Assembly: GCF_021568905.1 (NCBI RefSeq) | Contig: NZ_JAKGSB010000004.1 | Coordinates: forward strand, 1-64,000 | Length of the DNA stretch: 64,000 bases | Direction: 5' to 3' | Origin: Zavarzinia marina | Lineage (GTDB): Bacteria; Pseudomonadota; Alphaproteobacteria; Zavarziniales; Zavarziniaceae | Part shown: in pieces, positions 5,197-41,497 of the stretch | Position numbering within the stretch: position 1 is the stretch's first letter | Layout of the letters: each line of letters starts with the position of its first letter | Position numbers and translations under genes: made by a program | The notes under the pieces: generated by a model | What the model saw: the letters and a program-made list of their open reading frames with translations, nothing else | The model's database searches: none | Told to the model about the DNA's origin: nothing

Positions 5197-6309
5197 ATGT
5201 CCGACAAAACCTTTCCGCGCAGCGAACTGCTGGATCGCCTGCGCCTGATCCGCACGGATTCCGTCGGGCCGGTCGCCTTCGATCATCTGCTCGGCCTCTA
5301 CGGCAGCGCCGGCGCTGCCCTCGACGCCATGCCCGGCCTCGCCCGGAAGGGCGGCGCCCGCACCCTGCGCATCCCGACGCGGGCCGACGCCGAACGCGAA
5401 CTCGCGGCGATCGAACGGGCGGGGGCGCGCCTGCTGGCCAGGGGCATGGCGGACTACCCCCGCCTGCTCGCCGCGACCGAGGGGGCGCCGCCCCTGATCA
5501 CGGTGAAGGGCCACCCGCTTCTCGCCGCGCGCCCGACGGTGGCGCTGGTCGGCGCGCGCAACGCCTCGGCCGCCGGCCAGCGCCTGGCGCGGGAGATTGC
5601 CGGCGACCTCGGCCGGGTGGGCTTTACCGTCGTCTCCGGCCTGGCGCGCGGCATCGACGGCGTCGCCCATCAGGCGGCGCTCTCGACCGGCACCATCGCC
5701 GTGGTCGCCGGCGGCATCGATATCGTCTACCCGCCCGAACACGAGGCGTTGCAGGCGCGGATCGCGGCGGAGGGCCTGCTGGTCGCCGAAATGCCCGTCG
5801 GCACCCAGCCCCAGGCGCGCCATTTCCCGCGGCGCAACCGCCTGATCTCCGGCCTGTCGCTGGGCGTCGTCGTCGTCGAGGCGGCGCTGAAGTCCGGCAG
5901 CCTGATCACGGCGCGCTTCGCCCTCGAACAGGGGCGCGAGGTGATGGCGGCGCCGGGCAGCCCGCTGGATCCCCGCGCCAGGGGCGGCAACGACCTGATT
6001 CGCCAGGGCGCGCGGCTGATCGAATCCGGGGCGGAGGTGGCGGAGATCCTTCGCCCCATGGCCGAGGGGCCGCTGGCGGAACCGGAAAGCCGCGATTACC
6101 GCCCCCCTGCCCTGACCCTGCCCGACGAAGGGGAAATCGCCGCGAATCGGGCCCTCGTGTTCGAACTGCTGTCGCCGGTGCCCGTCGCGGTCGACGAACT
6201 GCTCAGGCAAGCCGAATTGACTCCACCCGTGGTTTTTACCATTTTGCTCGAACTGGAATTGGCTGGACGCCTGCAACGCCATGCCGGCGGGCGGGTTTCA
6301 CTGATCTGA
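5197..6309 (+). CDS. dprA: DNA-processing protein DprA
   Basis: A 370-residue cytosolic protein that loads RecA on incoming single-stranded DNA during natural transformation. The Rossmann-like DprA/Smf fold is shown by VGARNAS at about residue 118-124, SGLARGIDGVAH, AGGIDIVYPPEH, FPRRNRLISGLS and EAALKSGSLITARFALEQGREVMA. A C-terminal winged-helix (DML1-like) domain follows, around 315-370. It sits 166 bases upstream of topA on the same strand, a neighbourhood (dprA-topA) common in many bacteria. Presence of dprA alone does not show competence; it is nearly universal. Confidence 0.96.
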   Translation: MSDKTFPRSELLDRLRLIRTDSVGPVAFDHLLGLYGSAGAALDAMPGLARKGGARTLRIPTRADAERELAAIERAGARLLARGMADYPRLLAATEGAPPLITVKGHPLLAARPTVALVGARNASAAGQRLAREIAGDLGRVGFTVVSGLARGIDGVAHQAALSTGTIAVVAGGIDIVYPPEHEALQARIAAEGLLVAEMPVGTQPQARHFPRRNRLISGLSLGVVVVEAALKSGSLITARFALEQGREVMAAPGSPLDPRARGGNDLIRQGARLIESGAEVAEILRPMAEGPLAEPESRDYRPPALTLPDEGEIAANRALVFELLSPVPVAVDELLRQAELTPPVVFTILLELELAGRLQRHAGGRVSLI

Positions 6310-6360
6310 AGCACGCCGGTGCCGGCACGCGGAACGATCGGGTGGAGCCGGCCCTTACGC

Positions 6361-6366
6361 TAGAAT
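6361..6366 (+). promoter_or_regulatory. Possible topA -10 element TAGAAT
   Basis: TAGAAT matches the -10 consensus at five of six positions and lies 110 bases before the topA start, just upstream of the tandem repeats. No convincing -35 is seen 17 bases upstream. If it is used, the repeats would be at the very 5' end of the topA leader RNA. Confidence 0.35.
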
Positions 6367-6375
6367 GTCAACGCA

Positions 6376-6460
6376 TTGCCCAAGTGATCTGGGCCCAAGT
6401 GACGCTTTGCCCAAGTGACCTGGGCCCAAGTGATCGGGGCCCAAGTGATCGGGGCCCAGA
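6376..6460. repeat. 15-bp tandem repeat in the topA leader
   Basis: The core GCCCAAGTGA occurs five times, starting at 6378, 6393, 6409, 6424 and 6439 (spacing 15, 16, 15, 15), and a sixth, degenerate unit GGGGCCCAG begins at 6451. The best units read (T/G)GGGCCCAAGTGATC and each contains the palindrome GGGCCC. The array ends 16 bases before the topA ATG. I saw no other copy in the window. Confidence 0.9.
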
Positions 6461-6475
6461 AAGAACCGAGACCTT

Positions 6476-11956: not shown

Positions 11957-12018
11957 CGCACGAAACACCGCACACACGAGACACCGCGCACACGAGACAG
12001 CGACCGCGCGAGACGACG
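11957..12018. repeat. Imperfect 16-bp tandem repeat
   Basis: Four degenerate units lie end to end after the DUF983 stop, starting at 11957, 11971, 11987 and 12003. The two middle ones read GC(A/G)CACACGAGACA(C/G)C; the outer ones share the GAAACA or GAGAC core. They abut the terminator at 12022. No function is evident. Confidence 0.5.
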
Positions 12019-21204: not shown

Positions 21205-21321
21205 ATGCCTCTCTCCCACCGGTGCCATGTTCGCCATGACGGCACGGAATGCAAATTGAATCTAATTCGATTTGCATTCCGGCAATTTGCATTCGGGCGA
21301 CTTGATGTCCGCGCCGCCGAC

Positions 21322-41147: not shown

Positions 41148-41497
41148 ATCCTGTATACGGCGCGGTCCCCGGTTTTAATCCGGGCCCGCGAAAAAATTTC
41201 CGGCTTGCCCCGCAAGGGACCGAAAGCGCAAAATTTCGACCGTGCCGCTGCGACCGATTGTCCACCAGGGACGGGAATTGATCCATCGCAGCGCAGCCGG
41301 CAGCCGACCGACACCAAATATAAACCATGGCTGCAACGGTACCGGCCCCGCCACGGTTTCAACCCGCCACGGTTTCACCCTGTCACGGTTTCACCAGGAT
41401 CGGCGGTCAACGTTTCGAGAGTATGTGCCGTTTCCCGCCATGTGTCCGTCGCGCCGGCGCCGTTGCCGTGCATTCGTCACCAGGAAAGGAGATTGCC
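41148..41497. other. 350-base gene-free divergent region
   Basis: No credible coding sequence is seen here. It lies between the divergent sigma factor and a small hypothetical gene, so it must hold both promoters. Landmarks are an A/T-rich patch around 41190-41200, TATAAA at 41319-41324, and the three-copy 16-bp repeat at 41349-41396. I could not assign -35/-10 pairs. Confidence 0.6.
41349..41396. repeat. Three-copy 16-bp tandem repeat
   Basis: Units start at 41349, 41365 and 41381: CGCCACGGTTTCAACC, CGCCACGGTTTCACCC, TGTCACGGTTTCACCA. The core CACGGTTTCA is invariant. The array ends 101 bases upstream of the small gene at 41498 and about 200 bases upstream of the sigma factor gene. Confidence 0.9.

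Follow-up and report, generated by a model that had tools for sequence, protein, structure and literature searches.

A tandem array of short repeats upstream of topA in Zavarzinia marina is most probably a young, species-specific intergenic minisatellite

The spacer between dprA and topA, the gene for DNA topoisomerase I, in Zavarzinia marina carries a regular array of short repeats that ends just before the topA start codon, which raises the question of whether this array is a regulatory element of topA or the product of repeat expansion. The locus belongs to a window of 64,000 nucleotides (contig NZ_JAKGSB010000004.1, positions 1 to 64,000), which is the whole stretch of DNA analysed, and its features are listed in Table 1. 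A first-pass annotation had offered three options, namely a multi-site protein-binding array, a leader RNA structure modulating TopA translation, and simple repeat expansion. The last of these is the one supported by the present analysis, on the basis of nested blocks within the array, of its absence in relatives and of abundant unrelated duplications in the same genome. The array is most probably a young, species-specific intergenic minisatellite that arose by replication slippage and that likely has no selected regulatory role.

Table 1. Features of the dprA-topA region of Z. marina (positions in the window)
Feature	Coordinates	Strand	Basis
dprA, upstream gene, 370 aa ORF	5197..6309	+	name from the first-pass annotation and gene order
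Extra spacer DNA without alignable congener counterpart; holds TAGAAT	6310..6370	+	six-species alignment; promoter scan negative
31-bp block A: ACGCATT, copy 1 and most of copy 2	6371..6401	+	29/31 identical to block B
Tandem array, 5 x GCCCAAGTGA (15/16-bp units) and partial GCCCA	6378..6458	+	copy positions, TRF
31-bp block B: ACGCTTT, copy 3 and most of copy 4	6402..6432	+	block identity; TRF period 31, score 120
Exact 15-bp duplication, GGGCCCAAGTGATCG x2	6422..6451	+	spacer duplication scan
GAACCGAGACC, topA translation-initiation region	6463..6473	+	alignment
topA, DNA topoisomerase I, 895 aa	6476..9163	+	ORF

The array is composed of five exact copies of the 10-bp core GCCCAAGTGA, starting at 6378, 6393, 6409, 6424 and 6439 (spacings of 15, 16, 15 and 15 bp), and of a partial sixth copy, GCCCA (6454-6458), exactly as first described. 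Its location in the topA leader, before the start codon, was also borne out, with the correction that 17 bases rather than 16 separate its 3' end from the ATG (6476). The motif GGGCCC, previously attributed to each unit, spans three of the four unit junctions as well as that with the partial copy; immediately before copy 3 the sequence is CTTTGCCC. Differences between copies are confined to 5-6 spacer positions and the core is invariant. In TRF, a period of 31 (2.9 copies, score 120) outscores a period of 15 (5.3 copies, score 111). The array falls well outside what chance would produce, since dinucleotide shuffling of the 85 kb of sampled spacers yields 0-1 such tandem duplications; with head-to-tail units in the range of about 10-60 bp, it has the make-up of a minisatellite.

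The period of 31 corresponds to a nested structure. Indeed, the array and its 5' flank comprise two 31-bp blocks, block A being ACGCATT GCCCAAGTGATCTGG GCCCAAGTG and block B being ACGCTTT GCCCAAGTGACCTGG GCCCAAGTG, and the 7-base flank, which is not part of the unit, was copied as well (6/7 matches, chance ~0.002). The first bases of block B create the 16-bp step; since the flank was copied within blocks that are 29/31 identical, this step marks where one 31-bp block was joined to its duplicate. The 15/16-bp spacing, which had been considered meaningful for its closeness to 1.5 helical turns, thus reflects stepwise nested 15/31-bp duplication and not helical phasing, and nesting of this kind is the trace expected from slippage or unequal exchange that occurs repeatedly. 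We infer the following order of steps: (i) slipped-strand replication (or unequal exchange) would have doubled a stretch of about 15 bp at this site, (ii) the resulting pair of copies would have been duplicated in turn as a 31-bp block that included the 5' flank ACGCATT, and (iii) one more 15-bp duplication would have followed, the exact duplication of GGGCCCAAGTGATCG being probably the youngest step.

Comparison with relatives points to a recent gain. A close homologue of dprA adjoins topA in Zavarzinia aquatilis, and the N-terminal 200 aa of TopA share 90-95% identity in congeners. The dprA-topA gap measures 166 bp in Z. marina versus ~40-60 bp in five congeners, and in the six-species alignment the whole excess spacer, array included, is missing from all five. 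The array is also absent from one other genus of the family; two adjacent units, with two mismatches allowed, occur in no other genome of the family; and an exact scan for two units across 84,980 genomes of other species, from which records very near the source genome may be missing, gave no hit. The array is therefore species-specific among the genomes compared, a lineage-specific gain by duplication with the matching place in relatives devoid of it. Just 5' of the ATG, GAACCGAGACC is common to most congeners and was left intact by the array, which stands upstream of this conserved region and was probably not retained for regulation. The congeners have no DNA alignable to the extra spacer, so the ancestor of the unit is not seen, which counts against the minisatellite reading. 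A search for dispersed copies of this extra DNA elsewhere in the genome returned weak GC-rich matches only. Furthermore, 90 topA leaders, mostly alphaproteobacterial, were surveyed for tandem duplications within 300 bp, and three contained one: Z. marina with its array, congener G005, in which an unrelated 15-bp unit stands twice at the dprA stop codon, just before topA, and one distant genome, with a duplication ~300 bp upstream of topA.

These comparisons bear directly on a protein-binding array, in which a regulator would bind each GCCCAAGTGA and control topA in this species only. The first-pass annotation had itself proposed the dprA-topA alignment and named absence from close relatives as the outcome that would speak against a function; because the array is absent from all of them, a conserved function is unsupported. 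Neither the congener alignment nor the 90 topA leaders revealed sites conserved upstream of orthologous genes, as in an operator array. A binding array could draw on the invariance of the core in five copies, on the near-regular spacing and on the near-uniqueness of the unit, one further lone copy of which exists outside the array in the 3.95 Mb genome. This genome-wide search, also suggested earlier, found no second set of GCCCAAGTGA sites in the 3.95 Mb, the array being confined to one place, which argues against a binding array. Steps of 15/16 bp also place successive copies on alternating faces of the helix and are explained by block duplication, and the genome contains dozens of further arrays whose units are unrelated. 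An invariant core flanked by variable spacer positions is nonetheless what a binding site would be expected to show, and it counts against the minisatellite reading. As evidence for a binding site it is weak, as only ~3-5 mutational events are involved (P ~0.06-0.3, author's estimate), and most of the clustering of differences in the spacer positions follows from the block history. Taken together, a binding array that controls topA is very unlikely.

A leader RNA element, in which tandem small hairpins would modulate topA translation, is more improbable still. Hairpins of the form CCCA(7)TGGG are possible in some units, and a transcribed array would stand just upstream of the start codon. However, the leader folds no better than shuffled sequences (z = -0.83, with an unstructured centroid), a scan of it against Rfam gave no match, so that neither stability beyond shuffles nor a known family indicates a structured leader RNA or riboswitch, there is no conservation from which covariation could be read, and the array falls outside the translation-initiation region conserved in relatives. 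This second option of the first-pass annotation is thus unsupported as well. As for transcription, a -10-like TAGAAT is indeed located upstream of the array (6361-6366), as had been reported, but it is at most a candidate promoter element, the consensus scan giving no -35 partner; the scan for sigma-70 promoters and terminators found none.

The array is one of many. In a sample of the Z. marina genome (864 kb, with 410 spacers totalling 85 kb and gene calls from a simple codon model), the spacers contain 33 tandem duplications with a period of 12-40 bp, versus 0-1 in shuffles. All but one (32/33) have a period of 12-18 bp, and their units are almost all unrelated, two sharing GGCCTGAGT. Congener G003 has 14 tandem duplications in 35 kb of spacers, a density similar to that of Z. 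marina, and congener G002 has 5 in 54 kb. Across the few genomes compared, all as partial samples, two of the three Zavarzinia species reach a density of 0.39-0.40 per kb, versus 0-0.17 in four other alphaproteobacteria; exact duplications alone gave a similar order among the genomes. Two further intergenic arrays of the window (11959-11999 and 41346-41395) likewise have no counterpart at the corresponding positions in congeners. Given that many similar duplications are present genome-wide, the topA array needs no topA-specific explanation. We infer slippage as the mechanism and near-neutrality, with no selected function, as the present state of the array. A wider proposal, advanced tentatively and rather doubtful at present, is that some Zavarzinia have a distinct mutational process making 12-18-bp spacer duplications, the topA array among them, and that such arrays now and then alter the expression of the next gene. 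Ku-dependent end-joining was considered as a source of the duplications and is unlikely, no Ku being found in the four Zavarzinia genomes searched.

Several other repeat-bearing places were recorded. The array at 11959-11999 is tandem with a 16-bp period (CACGAGACACCGCACA) and directly precedes a GC-rich hairpin (CCCCGCCGCG...CGCGGCGGGG), the congeners being without the array, and that at 41346-41395 consists of three 16-bp units with the core CACGGTTTCA, within a species-specific spacer insertion of ~42 bp relative to congener G005. One spacer at G000:C9:189583-189848 (within L113) holds two different arrays, one of 16 bp x 6 and the other of 14 bp x 6, flanking a palindromic element, GTCATCCCGGCGAAGGCCGGGATCTCG..., and a similar element adjoins an 18-bp array at C9:74247; the edges of this dispersed palindromic element may be sites from which arrays expand. 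At 21246-21298 of the window, GAATGCAAAT/ATTTGCATTC occur as inverted and direct copies in a short span, in an operator-like arrangement.

Bacterial promoters can carry tandem repeats that tune expression (PMC3899988). In a further reading, the array would be a variable-number tandem repeat (VNTR) that was made by slippage and whose copy number has selectable effects on TopA, a reading in keeping with the recent exact duplication at 6422-6451 and with the similar promoter or leader repeats of other bacteria (PMC3899988). It is nevertheless unlikely, as the scan found no promoter and as the array has many equals at other genes, which suggests that it is not specially tied to topA. The position just before an essential gene is one at which an effect on expression would be likely, and it counts against the minisatellite reading; an incidental effect of the array on TopA level is possible. 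With bacterial intergenic minisatellites and VNTRs (PMC3899988), the array shares head-to-tail spacer units of 10-60 bp, recent exact copies beside diverged ones, and copies attributable to slippage or unequal exchange; it differs in that, in the one genome compared, copy-number polymorphism and an expression effect are at most putative. In Planctomycetota, intergenic tandem repeats with a high turnover have been attributed to polymerase slippage (PMC9426551). These are also located in spacers, although they belong to another phylum; the Zavarzinia periods are mostly 12-18 bp, in a comparison of one genome per species. Streptomyces topA (PMC5055605, PMC8120823) is an example of regulated topA promoters; the gene is the same, but the Z. 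marina array is not conserved, the promoter scan is negative and any supercoiling response would be hypothetical here. Literature searches returned nothing on point for topA promoters with tandem repeats, and little for short intergenic tandem duplications in bacteria.

In summary, a plausible-looking regulatory element of topA is struck off, and regular spacing beside a housekeeping gene can mislead. The remaining interest lies in the excess of 12-18-bp tandem duplications across the spacers of Zavarzinia genomes, a possible aid in studying the birth of short tandem arrays in bacteria.
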